DNA of 64,000 bases from Pseudarthrobacter equi (lineage in GTDB: Bacteria; Actinomycetota; Actinomycetes; Actinomycetales; Micrococcaceae), in assembly GCF_900105535.1 (NCBI RefSeq), contig NZ_LT629779.1, positions 310,001 to 374,000 on the forward strand, given 5' to 3'. A program made the position numbers and the translations under genes. Positions 20,008 to 47,648 of the stretch are shown here, in pieces. Under the pieces are notes generated by a model that saw nothing but the letters and a program-made list of their open reading frames with translations, was not told the DNA's origin and did not search any database. How positions within the stretch are numbered: position 1 is the first letter of the stretch; every line of letters begins with the position of its first letter.

Positions 20008-20416
20008 TTATCCACAGCCACCGTCTCCTCAATCCACAGAGTTATCCACAGCTACTTCAAGGCGCCACAGCGGGTATCCTGGGGTGGCGGAACGCCGGCT
20101 GCCGTGTCATTGGGAACGGCGCAGATCATTGAAGGATCTGGCTGGCTCCGAGCCGCTGGTCCACACCGGGCAAACCAGCACTTGAGCCGCTGGATCAGCC
20201 ACATTCGTACTATTTTAGATGCGCGAACGTGCCCCAACGGCAATCTTCTGACGCGGCCTCAAGTCCGTGCTCCGTTTCACGTGAAACGGCTCCCTGTTGG
20301 GCGCAGGTTGGTCGTGAGAGGCGTTCCGTCTCTCCTCGGCATGAGAAGGTAGGAGAAGCCAAAGCCTGGTCTTGTCCACAGATCTATCCACATTGTTATC
20401 CACAGGTTTATCCACT
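20008..20416. other. DnaA-box cluster inside the parS region
   Basis: Perfect TTATCCACA at 20008-20016, 20042-20050 and 20396-20404; TTGTCCACA at 20372-20380; one-mismatch CTATCCACA at 20384-20392 and TTATCCACT at 20408-20416; a weaker CAATCCACA at 20030-20038. All seven read in the same direction. They form two tight groups about 330 bases apart, with a parS (20273) between them. It lies about 9 kb from the dnaA-side oriC boxes. DnaA binding is inferred from the boxes. Confidence 0.75.
20273..20288. other. parS site
   Basis: CGTTTCACGTGAAACG; perfect core. It sits between the two DnaA-box groups. Confidence 0.93.
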
Positions 20417-28667: not shown

Positions 28668-29138
28668 GTTAGTTACTCCAGTGGATCAAAGGTGCGTCCA
28701 CCCGATCAAAAATGGGGAAGAACTGGCCGACGCTAAGTTTTGTATATGCACGCTTCCCCCTGCTGCCCAGGCGCAGTGCGCTTGGGAGAATCAGTCGGGG
28801 CCAAAAAGCGGACACAAAGGACTTCACAACGTTAGGGCAATTTAGACCCTGCAGTCAAACCGGGAGGGGTCCCCTCCACTATCCCCAGCTGTGTCTAACT
28901 ACCCTTCACCACCTGTGGATGAAGTGGCTCACAAGCGCCAAAAGCGAACCACAACGGTGTAATTATCCACAAGCAGTTTCCCAGCTATCTTCTAGGCTTT
29001 TCATCCCCTAGAGTGGCTCAGTAGCCGATTATCCACGGACTGTGCATAACCCTGTGGATGAAGCTGGGCCAGCATCTTGGTTCCGGGTCCGGGGCTGCAG
29101 GTAATGCAGGGCAAAGCAAGTTTTGAGGGAACCGATTG
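28668..29138. other. rpmH-dnaA intergenic region, DnaA boxes (part of oriC)
   Basis: Divergent region carrying the promoters of rpmH and dnaA. DnaA-type nonamers: TTATCCACA at 28963-28971, TTATCCACG at 29029-29037, and TGTGGATGA at 28914-28922 and 29053-29061; TGTGCATAA at 29041-29049 is weaker. A 15-bp palindrome (GGAGGGG-T-CCCCTCC, 28863-28877) is also present. I could not fix a convincing -35/-10 pair for either gene. Confidence 0.75.
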
Positions 29139-30560: not shown

Positions 30561-31087
30561 TCCCCGCATCTATACCTTATTAACAGGTGCATGTGGATAA
30601 GCCTGTGGATAGTTAAGGGGACAAGCGCGCTTAATGGGCTTAAAACCCTTAAGGCGCCTGTGGATCGTTAAAACCGGCTTCTGGGTTGTCCCCATCCACA
30701 CCCTGTTTAAAACCCAGTTAACTCACAGTCCGTGAACAGGGCTTAACCGCGGATCTCCGCTGCGAGACGGGGTTATCCACAGTTTCCACAGCAGTTATTA
30801 ACACTACGAATCCCAAAAAATTGAAAATCCCTCAAACAACAAGATCCTTCGCCTCGTACCGTGCAGGGACCATCGGCCCCCTGAAGGGGCCGGGGAGGTT
30901 TTGGGGGATGGGTTAATCCCGGATCTTCCGGCTAAGCTGTCAGCAGCGCTCCCATCCCTGGGTTTTTGTGTGGTTTCCGTTCAGCGCGGACCATGCACCT
31001 GCCGGAATCGGGTGCATCATTTTCCGGAATCACCCCTGCGGAGGTTCCGGCCTACTAGGCAGCAGCAACGAAAGGCGGCATCCCTCC
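30561..31087. other. Replication origin oriC (dnaA-dnaN gap)
   Basis: About 530 bases without a gene. DnaA boxes: TGTGGATAA at 30592-30600, TGTGGATAG at 30604-30612, TGTGGATCG at 30659-30667, CCATCCACA at 30692-30700, TTATCCACA at 30773-30781 and GTTTCCACA at 30782-30790. Two TTATTAACA nonamers occur at 30577-30585 and 30795-30803. An A/T-rich patch at about 30800-30850 (CCCAAAAAATTGAAAATCCC) is a good candidate for the unwinding element. This position is the standard actinobacterial oriC. Confidence 0.88.
30874..30892 (+). terminator. Hairpin downstream of dnaA/oriC
   Basis: 7-bp stem CGGCCCC/GGGGCCG with a 5-base loop, followed by GGGAGGTTTTGGGGG. It may end the dnaA message or shape the dnaN leader. 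Confidence 0.35.
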
Positions 31088-34987: not shown

Positions 34988-37451
<2,464 letters not shown>

Positions 37452-44356: not shown

Positions 44357-44511
44357 AACTACCTCCCGATTAATGTGACGGTTCTGTGGTTAGCCTACGT
44401 GCCTGAGACTTCACGGGCTATTCACTCTGCGGATTTTAGGGCGATTTCACCCAGCGCGGAACTGGTACAGGGGCCGCCAACGTCATAGTCCGCCATGGAA
44501 GAATGGGCCTT

Positions 44512-45057
44512 ATGACTGCCATCGCAACCGCAAAAGCAACCATCCACACCAGCCTCGGCGACATCGTGGTAAACCTCTTCGGCAACCACGCGCCCAAGAC
44601 CGTCAAGAACTTCGTTGGACTCGCCACGGGCGAGCAGGACTGGACCCACCCGGAAACGGGCGAGGCCAAGACCGGCACCCCGCTCTACAACGGAACCATC
44701 TTCCACCGCATCATCAAGGACTTCATGATCCAGGCCGGCGACCCGCTGGGCCGCGGCACCGGTGGCCCCGGCTACCGCTTTGATGACGAGATCCACCCCG
44801 AACTGAGCTTCAACGCACCGTACAAGCTGGCCATGGCGAACGCCGGCATCCAGATGGGCAAGGGCACCAACGGTTCCCAGTTCTTCATCACCACCATCCC
44901 CACCGACTGGCTGCAGGGCAAGCACAGCATCTTCGGTGAAGTGGCCGACGACGAATCCAAGAAGGTCGTCGACGCCATCGAGGGCGTCCGCACCGGCATG
45001 GGCGACCGCCCGGTGGAGGATGTCACCATCAACAGCATCGATATCGAACAGCTGTAA
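44512..45057 (+). CDS. ppiA: Cyclophilin-type peptidyl-prolyl isomerase
   Basis: 181 residues from ATG 44512 (GGAAGA 9 bases upstream; another ATG at 44503 is in frame). No signal peptide, so cytoplasmic. TSLGDIVVNLFGNHAPKTV, then active-site FHRIIKDFMIQAGDPLGRG and GTNGSQFFITT; KHSIFGEV near the end. Speeds proline isomerisation during folding. It lies near crgA and trpG as in mycobacteria, and is followed after 9 bases by the rhomboid gene. Confidence 0.95.
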   Translation: MTAIATAKATIHTSLGDIVVNLFGNHAPKTVKNFVGLATGEQDWTHPETGEAKTGTPLYNGTIFHRIIKDFMIQAGDPLGRGTGGPGYRFDDEIHPELSFNAPYKLAMANAGIQMGKGTNGSQFFITTIPTDWLQGKHSIFGEVADDESKKVVDAIEGVRTGMGDRPVEDVTINSIDIEQL

Positions 45058-45066
45058 TCCCGCACC

Positions 45067-45945
45067 ATGAGTTACGGAATTCCGTCGGCCGAGCCGTCCG
45101 CCCAGGTCCCGGTATGCCCCCGGCACCCTGACAGGCCCTCCTACGTGCGCTGCCAGCGGTGCGGGCGTCCCGCATGCCCCGACTGCCAGCGGGCGGCCGC
45201 CGTCGGATTCCAATGCGTTGACTGCGTCAACGAAACAAGGCGTACGACGCCGGAAGTCCGGTCCGTCTACGGCGGCACCGTTGCCACGGGCAAGCCCATG
45301 GTGACGTTCAGGATCATCGCCGCCTGTGCGGTGCTGTACGTCCTGCAGTGGATCATCCCCAACGACGCCGTTTACCAAAGCCTGGGTTTTGCCAACATCT
45401 ACGCCGAACCGCGGTACGGCGAGTTTGAGCCGTGGCGGATGCTCACGGCAGCATTCCTGCATTCCCAGGGATTCATCCTGCACATTGCATTGAACATGTA
45501 CATGCTGTGGATCTTCGGGCAGGCACTGGAGCCCCTCCTGGGCCGCGTCCGTTTCCTTGCGGTGTACCTGCTGTCCGCCCTGGGCGGTTCAGTGGGGTAT
45601 CTGCTCCTCACTCCCCTCTACGTTCCCGGCCAGCCCCTGTACGGGGTGGTAGGCGCCTCCGGTGCCATCTTCGGCCTCTTTGGCGCCATGCTCCTGGTGC
45701 AGCGCCAGCGTGGCGGGGATACGCGGCAGCTGTGGATCCTGATTGCCATCAACGGCGCCATCGGCTTCCTGGTCCCGCAAATCGCCTGGCAGGCCCACCT
45801 CGGCGGGCTGGTCACAGGCGCCCTGTGCGCCGCCGTGATCGCGTACACACCCCGGGGTACACGGCGGGGCCTCATCCAGGCCGCTGGCCTGCTCGCGGTC
45901 CTGGCGCTCCTCGCAGCAGCAGTATGGGTGCGCGTCTCCATTTGA
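45067..45945 (+). CDS. Rhomboid intramembrane serine protease with zinc-binding N-domain
   Basis: 292 residues. N-terminal Cys/His-rich region (CPRHPDRPSYVRCQRCGRP, CPDCQRAAAVGFQCVDC) looks like a B-box-type zinc finger. Six to seven membrane helices follow, with HIALNMYMLWIFG, catalytic Ser in GVVGASGAIFGLFG near residue 200, and the paired His in WQAHLGGLVTG near residue 253. Cleaves membrane proteins within the bilayer; substrates unknown. Transcribed with ppiA. Confidence 0.93.
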   Translation: MSYGIPSAEPSAQVPVCPRHPDRPSYVRCQRCGRPACPDCQRAAAVGFQCVDCVNETRRTTPEVRSVYGGTVATGKPMVTFRIIAACAVLYVLQWIIPNDAVYQSLGFANIYAEPRYGEFEPWRMLTAAFLHSQGFILHIALNMYMLWIFGQALEPLLGRVRFLAVYLLSALGGSVGYLLLTPLYVPGQPLYGVVGASGAIFGLFGAMLLVQRQRGGDTRQLWILIAINGAIGFLVPQIAWQAHLGGLVTGALCAAVIAYTPRGTRRGLIQAAGLLAVLALLAAAVWVRVSI

Positions 45946-45971: not shown

Positions 45972-46009
45972 AAAACCCCCAGCCTCCTTGTGGAGGCTGG
46001 GGGTTTTCT
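45972..46009. terminator. Terminator after ppiA-rhomboid
   Basis: Perfect 16-bp stem, AAAACCCCCAGCCTCC against GGAGGCTGGGGGTTTT, with a 4-base loop. Works on paper in either direction; on the plus strand it ends in TTTTCTTT. Confidence 0.93.
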
Positions 46010-46661
46010 TTATCCACAGCCCTTATCCACAATGTTAGTAACTTACAAGCGTGTAGTTCAGGCCGGCGAAGCTCTGCAGCCGCCTGCTCACACGGCCGGG
46101 GCAGTACAGAGGCGGATTTTGTCCACATCTGTGGATAACTGCTGGGGATACGGTTGTGTTTAAGTGGAAAAAACCGCGAACCCAGGTCATCAATGTGGAT
46201 AACTCCAGCAGAATGGGCCGCATCAAGCCATATAGAACCGGCTGAACGCCGTTCCTCCACAGCTTTTGCACACTGTTAATAAGTCACAAACCTGTAAGTC
46301 TCGGATAAAAATCCCCCGGAATGGCGCAGTTCGGGGCGATTCATGGGCTCCTGAAGCTTCGGAATCCACAGCTGTGGATAAGTTGTGGGTATTGCAGTGT
46401 TGGTAAGTGGAAAAGCCGCCGGTCCTGCTGGACTCACGCGAAAGCGGTTGCAGGACTTCGGTTCCCGTGCGTGGAACTGGGGATAGAGCCCGGTGGTCCT
46501 GTGGGTACCGGCCGGTAACTCCGGGGGTGGCAGTTTATCCACAGGGTATTCCACAGTGTTAATAACTGCATCCATGGCGCGGGTTTCCGTGAAAGCCCGG
46601 CTTCCGCCGGGGGTGAGGGCTCAGGGAAGGGTGGACCAACGGTTATCAACACTGTGGATAA
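46010..46661. other. DnaA-box cluster in a 0.7-kb gene-free stretch
   Basis: Between two terminators, with no credible gene. Exact TTATCCACA/TGTGGATAA at 46010-46018, 46023-46031, 46130-46138, 46194-46202, 46373-46381, 46535-46543 and 46653-46661; TTGTCCACA at 46119-46127; TTATCAACA (one mismatch) at 46643-46651. TGTTAATAA occurs at 46274-46282 and 46557-46565, with the variant TGTTAGTAA at 46033-46041; its reverse complement TTATTAACA is also in oriC. This is a higher density of exact boxes than oriC itself, about 15 kb away. Likely DnaA-titrating or accessory initiation locus; inference. Confidence 0.85.
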
Positions 46662-46693
46662 CTTTCCCCACAGGCAAAAGCGCCGGAGACAAC

Positions 46694-46730
46694 AAAACCC
46701 CCGCTGCCGATCTCCGGCGACGGGGGTTTT
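46694..46730 (-). terminator. Terminator after tag
   Basis: 10-bp stem AAAACCCCCG/CGGGGGTTTT with a 17-base inner part that can itself pair (GCCG/CGGC); 9 bases beyond the tag stop; minus-strand tail GTTTTGTTGTC. Confidence 0.85.
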
Positions 46731-46739
46731 GGATCAAAC

Positions 46740-47348
46740 TCAGGAAGGCTGCGGCCACACCCCTGAGGAGCCCCGGCGGTGGCTGTCCACAAGATGAGTG
46801 TCCAACATGCCGATGGCCTCCATGAGGGCGAACATGGTGGTGGGGCCCACGAAGGCGAACCCCTTCCGGCGAAGGGCCTTGGACAGAGCCACGGACTCCG
46901 CCGACTGTGTGGGGATATCCGTGTGCACCATAGGTTGCGGTGTGGTGGGAGGCTGGAATCCCCAGACGAAATCCACCAGGCCACCCTCTTCGCGCAGCGC
47001 GATGGTGGCGCGGGCATTCTTGATGGTGGCAACAATCTTCAGCCGGTTCCGGACAATGCCGGTGTCCTGCAGGAGGCGGTCCACATCGCCGTCCGTGTAC
47101 AGTGCCACGGCATCGGGGTTGAAGTCGGCGAAAGCGGTGCGGAACGCCGGCCGCTTCCGGAGGATCGTGGCCCAGGTGAGGCCTGCCTGGAAGCCCTCCA
47201 GGCAGATCCGCTCGTACAGCCCGTGCTCATCCCGGACGGGCAGTCCCCATTCCTGGTCGTAGTACGTCCGCATCAACGGATCCGTGGAGGCCCACGCAGG
47301 ACGGGCGAGGCCGTCGTCGCCCACTATCAGGTCAGCACTTGGTGACAT
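46740..47348 (-). CDS. tag: DNA-3-methyladenine glycosylase I, zinc ligands not conserved
   Basis: 202 residues. The Tag core is clear: ARPAWASTDPLMRTYYDQEWG, ERICLEGFQAGLTWATILRKR (with the conserved catalytic-region Glu and Trp), NRLKIVATIKNA and GFAFVGPTTMFALMEAIGML. It removes N3-methyladenine to start base-excision repair. Compared with E. coli Tag as I recall it, the zinc-binding Cys4 is Pro, His17 is Tyr, and the C-terminal Cys is missing (DTHLVDSHRRG), so the zinc snap is probably lost. Confidence 0.92.
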   Translation of the reverse strand: MSPSADLIVGDDGLARPAWASTDPLMRTYYDQEWGLPVRDEHGLYERICLEGFQAGLTWATILRKRPAFRTAFADFNPDAVALYTDGDVDRLLQDTGIVRNRLKIVATIKNARATIALREEGGLVDFVWGFQPPTTPQPMVHTDIPTQSAESVALSKALRRKGFAFVGPTTMFALMEAIGMLDTHLVDSHRRGSSGVWPQPS

Positions 47349-47396: not shown

Positions 47397-47648
47397 TCAG
47401 GAGCGCCAGCGGGTGGTCATCATGAAGCCAACGATCGCGATGCCGAAGCCGGCCACGATGTTCCAGGAGCCCCACGGCTGGACCGGAAAACGGCCCTCGC
47501 TGATGTAGAACGTAATGATCCAGAACAGGCCGATGATCATCAGCCCGAACATGACCGGCTTGAACCACACCGGATTCGGCTTGTAGGCCGCCGGCGCGGC
47601 CTTCTCTGCGGTGCTGGCGGTCTTCTTACGGGGCTTTGACTCGGGCAC
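47397..47648 (-). CDS. crgA: Cell division protein CrgA
   Basis: 83 residues from GTG 47648 with AAGGAG 5-6 bases upstream. A basic Lys/Ala-rich N-tail is followed by two membrane helices (FKPVMFGLMIIGLFWIITFY and WNIVAGFGIAIVGFMMTTRW) and a very short end. Length, topology and place opposite the sortase/trpG genes match CrgA, which links FtsZ, FtsI and other septal proteins in actinobacteria. The conserved pre-helix NPVWFKPVM supports it. Confidence 0.93.
   Translation of the reverse strand: MPESKPRKKTASTAEKAAPAAYKPNPVWFKPVMFGLMIIGLFWIITFYISEGRFPVQPWGSWNIVAGFGIAIVGFMMTTRWRS

Follow-up and report, generated by a model that had tools for sequence, protein, structure and literature searches.

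To our knowledge, how actinobacteria restrict the initiation of replication to once per cycle is poorly understood; clusters of DnaA boxes near the origin (oriC) were reportedly described in Streptomyces coelicolor by Smulczyk-Krawczyszyn in 2006. The oriC-near clusters of both Bacillus subtilis and S. coelicolor repress untimely initiation (PMC4585315), and removing six DnaA-box clusters from B. subtilis leads to early initiation (PMC5295017). In Escherichia coli, titration by oriC-near boxes has found support (PMC12371093). The nearest counterpart of the locus described here is mycobacterial: in vitro, DnaA pulled down five DNA regions of M. tuberculosis, among them Rv0010c-Rv0011c, and homologues of all five were recovered in M. 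smegmatis by chromatin immunoprecipitation sequencing (PMC7738170). Within the Rv0010c-Rv0011c site two box-like sequences make up a palindrome, 65 bp upstream of where Rv0010c starts; the expression of Rv0010c and Rv0011c is reported as unchanged in dnaA mutants, and for the Rv0011c-side site the authors decide neither for titration nor for reactivation (PMC7738170). The subject of the present analysis is a cluster of DnaA boxes at positions 46010-46661 of a 64,000-nucleotide window (C1:310001-374000 of the complete 4,459,078-bp chromosome of Pseudarthrobacter equi), 652 bp of non-coding DNA between a rhomboid gene (+ strand, ending at 45945) and the convergent tag gene (- strand, 3' end at 46740), with tag in turn lying between the cluster and crgA. 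Its conservation and the DnaA binding seen in mycobacteria make it very likely, in our judgement, that the stretch is a genuine DnaA-binding locus under selection, and the best reading of it is as a dedicated predicted DnaA-binding locus of the chromosome near oriC.

We take Rv0011c to be crgA, a division gene. Both the mycobacterial spacer and the cluster would then lie on the 3' side of crgA, a likeness qualified in the window by the intervening tag gene, and both are near oriC and have DnaA-like boxes, two of which form a palindrome in the spacer, where a further feature is that the expression of the neighbours is unaffected by dnaA variants (PMC7738170). The initial annotation of the window knew of no described equivalent in Arthrobacter; we likewise found none for that genus in our literature searches, but DnaA binding on the crgA side has been published for mycobacteria (PMC7738170). 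Literature searches that paired crgA with DnaA boxes or rhomboid, or Rv0010c with DnaA, listed nothing that by title or abstract treats conservation beyond mycobacteria (subscription literature lying mostly outside their scope), and Streptomyces is nowhere mentioned in the text of PMC7738170. Like the cluster, the S. coelicolor clusters are actinobacterial and lie outside but near oriC, where they are said to repress untimely initiation (PMC4585315), and the B. subtilis clusters also stand outside oriC. With datA of E. coli the locus shares the nature of a non-coding box cluster whose spacing is under selection, and with DARS1 and DARS2 that of non-coding box groups of conserved spacing (PMC4585315); datA restrains DnaA, whereas the DARS elements, which have a core of three boxes, reactivate it. 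In datA, which stimulates hydrolysis of the ATP on DnaA, an IHF site lies between the DnaA boxes, whereas the cluster holds no IHF consensus, and membership in datA itself is therefore rejected. The consensus, taken as WATCAANNNNTTR, matches the window once, at 34996, and nowhere in the cluster; datA is also much farther from oriC than the cluster is.

Composition and modules of the cluster

Seven exact TTATCCACA boxes lie in the cluster in both directions, at 46010 (+), 46023 (+), 46130 (-), 46194 (-), 46373 (-), 46535 (+) and 46653 (-), with one TTGTCCACA at 46119 (+), just as the initial annotation had counted them, where 100 shuffles give a mean of 0.07 and a maximum of 1 exact TTATCCACA per 64-kb window. 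Its two further statements, that the boxes are denser than in oriC and lie 15 kb from it, also hold: rhomboid gaps average 5.6 boxes against only 2 TTRTCCACA in the dnaA-dnaN spacer of each of 21 genomes (the window's included), and the distance to that spacer is about 15.0 kb. The whole genome contains 38 TTATCCACA (reversed-motif control, 5) and 40 TTGTCCACA (control, 16); 8 of its 78 TTRTCCACA fall in the cluster and 2 in the dnaA-dnaN spacer, and an additional exact box stands upstream of dnaA at 28963. By the listed genome positions the cluster is the densest box stretch, the next group being 4 boxes at 20008-20404. The stretch thus has what characterizes a DnaA-box cluster outside oriC in general, a number of consensus boxes above that expected by chance in DNA that does not code.

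The boxes are set in repeated modules. In module 1 two exact boxes, A' at 46010 and A at 46023, stand in tandem at a distance of 13 bp (46010..46031, +), a 13-bp tandem that also occurs in other genera; behind box A lies an AT element, TGTTAGTAAC, overlapping AACTTACA-N4-TGTAGTTC (46033..46059, +) and conserved in the genus alignment, the tandem being followed by TGTTAGTAACTTACA-N4-TGTAGTTC. The palindrome AACTTACA-N4-TGTAGTTC (46040-46059) is conserved in the genus and its next best match in the genome carries 2 mismatches; we know of no regulator or binding protein to which it could be assigned. Back-to-back inverted boxes B, TTGTCCACA (46119, +) and TTATCCACA (46130, -), occupy 46119..46138, the reverse box B starting 107 bp after box A. 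Behind them come TGTGTTTAAGTGGAAAA and then box 46194: a conserved TGTGttTAAGTGGAAAA element (46155..46171, +; mean pairwise identity 0.78 over 46154-46171) precedes exact box C (46194..46202, -; identity 0.63). Module 2 (46253..46288, +; identity 0.68) is a second tandem/TGTTAATAA unit with degenerate boxes, the box-like TCCTCCACA and TTTTGCACA followed by TGTTAATAAGTCACA. Inverted pair D (46365..46412), with an exact box at 46373 (-) and TGTTGGTAAGTGGAA, is conserved in aligned relatives, and this stretch is a diverged copy of 46122-46171 at 74% identity (repeat family D2). Module 3 (46535..46566, +) consists of exact box E (46535), TATTCCACA (46547) and TGTTAATAAC (46557), and inverted pair F (46642..46662), made of TTATCAACA (+) and the exact box at 46653 (-), follows 118 bp after E. 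Inverted box pairs are thus present at 46119-46138, 46365-46381 and 46642-46662, and in them two DnaA-like boxes form a palindrome, as at the mycobacterial site.

When up to 3 mismatches are allowed, the genome contains 7 copies of the composite TTATCCACAnTGTTRRTAAC and none of its reversed control. Five of the seven lie in the cluster (two exact, two with 2 mismatches and one with 3), and the two outside both carry 3 mismatches. To judge from the sequence, the second half of the composite, TGTTRRTAAC, resembles a reversed box (TGTGGATAAC). Helical phasing of the box spacings is not claimed, because the peaks at 107 and 120 bp partly reflect the 13-bp tandem boxes counted twice.

Conservation within and beyond the genus

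A rhomboid gene was present in 41 genomes of the genus set and gave 40 usable gaps, each running from the end of rhomboid up to the following recognised gene where one lay within 2.5 kb, and otherwise taken as 1.5 kb; G028, with rhomboid at a contig end, was excluded, and G032 is a short contig piece. Absence from close relatives, which the initial annotation had named as the outcome that would speak against the locus, is not what is seen: every one of the 40 gaps has 3-10 boxes, so that the cluster is also conserved in relatives, as befits a DnaA-box cluster outside oriC. Together the gaps hold 233 boxes in 50.1 kb (4.65 per kb), compared with 4 in the 210 kb of the remainder (0.019 per kb), while the reversed motif is found in neither. 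It would be possible to suppose that box-like words have become enriched by chance or composition in an AT-richer spacer, as the AT content of spacers usually exceeds that of genes and most of the control DNA in this density comparison is coding, but the shuffle and reversed-motif controls contradict this, box order and spacing are conserved, and we regard it as vanishingly improbable.

The core of the cluster was aligned in 30 of the 40 genus loci, those with an exact pair 104-112 bp apart. Mean pairwise identity in this alignment is 0.63-0.84 for boxes and modules vs 0.24-0.32 for spacers, the exception among the spacers being a short stretch behind the inverted pair (0.42). Box A and the reverse box B stand 105-109 bp apart in 34/40 loci, 30 with exact and 4 with relaxed boxes; when the 10 non-core loci were re-read with relaxed boxes, 4 measured 107-108 bp, 2 measured 117-118 bp and 4 were different or unclear (one at 119 bp). 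A late pair 117-121 bp apart is present in half of the loci (20/40). With boxes and modules conserved, the A-B distance fixed and the spacer sequence not conserved, it is apparently the sites and the distances between them that are under selection, as has likewise been described for oriC, datA and DARS of E. coli (PMC4585315).

An alignment of the gap was made from 16 chosen loci of the 40: 14 long-form relatives, the window strain and, of the genus genomes sampled, the one nearest to it, whose rhomboid is 98% identical to that of the window strain. In the 14 relatives the gap is longer, and boxes D and E are parted by a conserved coding block that lies inside the cluster; the block of the single relative tested (L042 1593-2099) encodes a protein of the carboxymuconolactone-decarboxylase (CMD) family, PF02627. 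The window strain and its nearest relative have no CMD-family open reading frame (ORF) between D and E (46381-46535) and keep the boxes on both sides, and a short D-E distance is also seen in at least 5 other genus loci (L047, L051, L054, L057, L066). The earlier description of the stretch as gene-free accordingly applies to the window strain, whose cluster fully encloses no ORF of at least 100 aa, but not to these 14 relatives, which carry the ORF-like block inside it.

Beyond the genus, 40 of 76 other-genus genomes of the family, representing 27 of 31 genera, were sampled, and all 40 gaps contain 1-6 boxes (129 in total; 2.61 per kb vs 0.060 outside, with a single reversed motif in the gaps). 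A scan of the species-genome collection for exact copies of the composite module returned at least 119 stretches, at least 83 of them from Micrococcaceae, and the listed Micrococcaceae matches include Arthrobacter, Pseudarthrobacter, Glutamicibacter, Paeniglutamicibacter, Kocuria, Zhihengliuella and Zafaria. In 77 of the 83 listed Micrococcaceae stretches the module stands 3' of rhomboid, mostly by less than 1 kb and by 2.2 kb at most; the remaining 6 encode tag and/or crgA and have no rhomboid match in the stretch. Rhomboid, tag and crgA were detectable in none of the 36 listed stretches from other groups. One stretch from a Mycobacteriales metagenome-assembled genome (L336) carries the composite module and five boxes, with no rhomboid, tag or crgA match.

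Other families of the order were represented by 20 of the 50 genomes with a match and other orders of the class by 40 loci from 38 of 87, among them two paralogous rhomboid loci (L177, L201) that were scored as misses. In both samples rhomboid is usually followed by crgA, and an exact box occurs in the gap in 10/20 order and 19/40 class loci. Where crgA lies more than 1 kb from rhomboid (9 loci), a box is found within about 105 bp 3' of crgA in six (L181, L182, L193, L194, L197, L198), with boxes elsewhere in L190 and none in L162 and L206. Taken over the family (14/27), order (9/17) and class (21/31), there is a trend towards boxes on the 3' side: the 600 bp 3' of crgA contain one in 44 of 75 loci, the 600 bp on its 5' side in 0 of 75. 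A CrgA sample of the phylum, for which 149 genomes were searched, 69 had a match and the best 30 loci were taken, gives a box 3' of crgA in 17 loci and 5' in none, and 8/18 outside the class; it includes two loci at contig ends (L404, L406) that were scored as misses and 12 in-class genomes that overlap the earlier samples. All of the five large genomes (7-9.7 Mb, presumed Streptomyces) have three conserved boxes in the gap. With boxes 3' of crgA in many Actinomycetes genomes and in some from outside the class, the site looks old, and it looks as if Micrococcaceae enlarged it.

That boxes track the 3' side of crgA in such widely different genomes invites the thought that DnaA bound near this gene couples replication to division or to nucleoid layout, affecting division timing or local architecture rather than initiation, and the mycobacterial variants, which give longer cells at an unchanged initiation rate, would suit it (PMC7738170). 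However, the boxes are at the 3' end of crgA and not at its promoter, Rv0011c expression is reported as unchanged in dnaA mutants (PMC7738170), and tag comes between the cluster and crgA in the window. We consider such a coupling quite unlikely.

Comparison with oriC and control of DnaA

The oriC candidate of the window is the dnaA-dnaN spacer (30561..30967), which served as the comparison region. In the 21 genomes it is conserved as one contiguous block, whereas the cluster is conserved as spaced modules; it has TTAA-rich repeats, TTATTAACA near both ends, GTTATTAACA on one side and, in 20/21, CTTATTAACA on the other. According to the published rule an unwinding element consists of a box, a spacer of up to 16 bp and at least 3 NAN trios (PMC8287927). 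Box 30773 of oriC fits this pattern with a spacer of 14 and 5 trios, as against none of the 9 cluster boxes, which have at most 2 trios. Of all 50-bp duplexes in the window the weakest lies in oriC, with that of the cluster close behind, in the top 0.01% of the window, and the oriC duplex is the weaker of the two in 20/21 genomes. The cluster is therefore not a plain second origin, and the initial suggestion of a second initiation element is not supported, although the near-equal weakness of the cluster duplex speaks in its favour. GC and keto skew over 464 kb had no usable minimum and speaks neither for nor against an origin position.

A looser relation to the origin would make the cluster an accessory part, at which DnaA contacts oriC over a distance, for example through domain I dimers, and so helps or restrains the orisome. 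There is something to be said for it: TGTTAATAAC is common to the cluster and both ends of the dnaA-dnaN spacer, a 50-bp duplex in the cluster ranks among the weakest in the window, and domain I contacts of DnaA have been proposed to link distant box clusters of the Streptomyces oriC (PMC13270200). The missing unwinding pattern, the weaker duplex of oriC and the difference between a contiguous block and spaced modules weigh against both this and an independent second origin, and we hold the two together to be unlikely.

The reading as a DnaA-binding locus draws on the consensus boxes in repeated modules, on their conserved position, order and spacing, on the convergent flanks and on the lack of an unwinding element of the published pattern. 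As to its function we lean, with some reserve and by analogy and position, towards a main effect of restraining DnaA, the cluster acting as a brake like datA and the DnaA-box clusters; in this respect the initial label of a datA-like locus is the best reading, although membership in datA is not supported. DnaA would bind the cluster tightly and cooperatively. Because a fork leaving oriC has copied the cluster after about 15 kb, the high-affinity sites would double in number at once, and the doubled sites would lower free DnaA and discourage re-initiation, as for datA and for the DnaA-box clusters near oriC in B. subtilis and S. coelicolor. To go by the fixed distances, DnaA would form an ordered complex here and not a loose sink, and this complex might in addition alter the nucleotide state of DnaA.

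A rival reading is that of a DARS-like reactivating site, a positive element whose inverted pairs would assemble ADP-DnaA, promote nucleotide release and raise ATP-DnaA. Inverted boxes at fixed spacing could suit an ordered exchange complex, and the mycobacterial Rv0011c-side variants resemble dnaA variants in a study whose authors do not choose between titration and reactivation (PMC7738170), but a position immediately next to oriC speaks for a sink whose sites are doubled without delay, and we think reactivation rather unlikely.

Several observations weigh against the reading as a brake. In mycobacteria, variants at the Rv0011c-side site lead to longer cells with a reportedly unchanged initiation rate (PMC7738170), which is a misfit with a simple brake and the strongest point against a simple sink. 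The mycobacterial spacer is also a different object, 155 bp long, upstream of Rv0010c rather than between convergent genes and with sequences that resemble boxes (PMC7738170), unlike the window locus with its ~650 bp, convergent flanks, 8 consensus boxes, repeated AT element and tag before crgA. The effect in B. subtilis is strong only once all six clusters are removed (PMC5295017), and the 70 further TTRTCCACA of the P. equi genome may hold more DnaA in total than the cluster does. The AT elements are unexplained by titration alone. An exact box is absent from the gap in 10/20 order and 21/40 class loci, and 13/30 phylum loci lack a box within 600 bp 3' of crgA; the loci are moreover kin, and their counts hence not independent.

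More tentatively, and with a good deal of doubt, we entertain the possibility that an ancient Actinomycetota DnaA-control site beside crgA has in Micrococcaceae grown into an ordered composite-module switch that sets the availability or activity of DnaA after each round. Its modules, tandem boxes, the weak reversed box-like TGTTRRTAAC with the TGTA palindrome, and an inverted pair at a set distance, would build a defined DnaA complex, in a genome in which neither SeqA nor YabA, the known brakes, was found. Being small and non-coding, constant in position across the sampled Micrococcaceae and matched by a DnaA-bound mycobacterial counterpart, the site offers a direct test object for initiation control, and through it a mycobacterial DnaA site that was published without an explanation becomes part of a wider evolutionary pattern.

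Flanking genes and smaller box groups

On the left the cluster is bordered by the rhomboid gene (45067..45945, +; Pfam PF01694, E 4.1e-30), itself preceded by a ppiA-like cyclophilin gene (44503..45057, +; PF00160, E 2.6e-42), and on the right by tag, encoding a 3-methyladenine DNA glycosylase (46740..47348, -; PF03352, E 3e-64). Next to tag is crgA (47403..47645, -; PF06781; G000:C1:357403-357645), the gene on whose 3' side other actinobacteria have DnaA boxes. The placement of the cluster between two terminators, as first described, is in keeping with terminator-like hairpins at both ends, a 16-nt perfect inverted repeat with a 4-nt loop and a T-rich tail at 45972..46007 (+), the probable rhomboid terminator, and a probable tag terminator at 46693..46731 (-) from the inverted-repeat search (I5); a consensus terminator scan, on the other hand, lists neither. 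Regulation of a promoter by the cluster was rejected as unlikely because the gap lies between the 3' ends of convergent genes; the sole promoter-like match in 44.4-47.7 kb, to the sigma-70 consensus only, is at 47342, outside the cluster. A structured RNA was likewise rejected, as Rfam at gathering scores gave no match in the cluster.

A smaller box group at 20008-20416 has boxes at 20008 and 20042 and box-like sites at 20372, 20384, 20396 and 20408 in 12-bp phase; the ORFs tested near it have no Pfam match, and the pattern of the phased array (20372-20404) recurs at up to 2 mismatches in 3/41 genus genomes, its own included. Elsewhere in the chromosome, pairs of consensus boxes about 300 bp apart occur at G000:C1:269719-270027 and 2249589-2249918.
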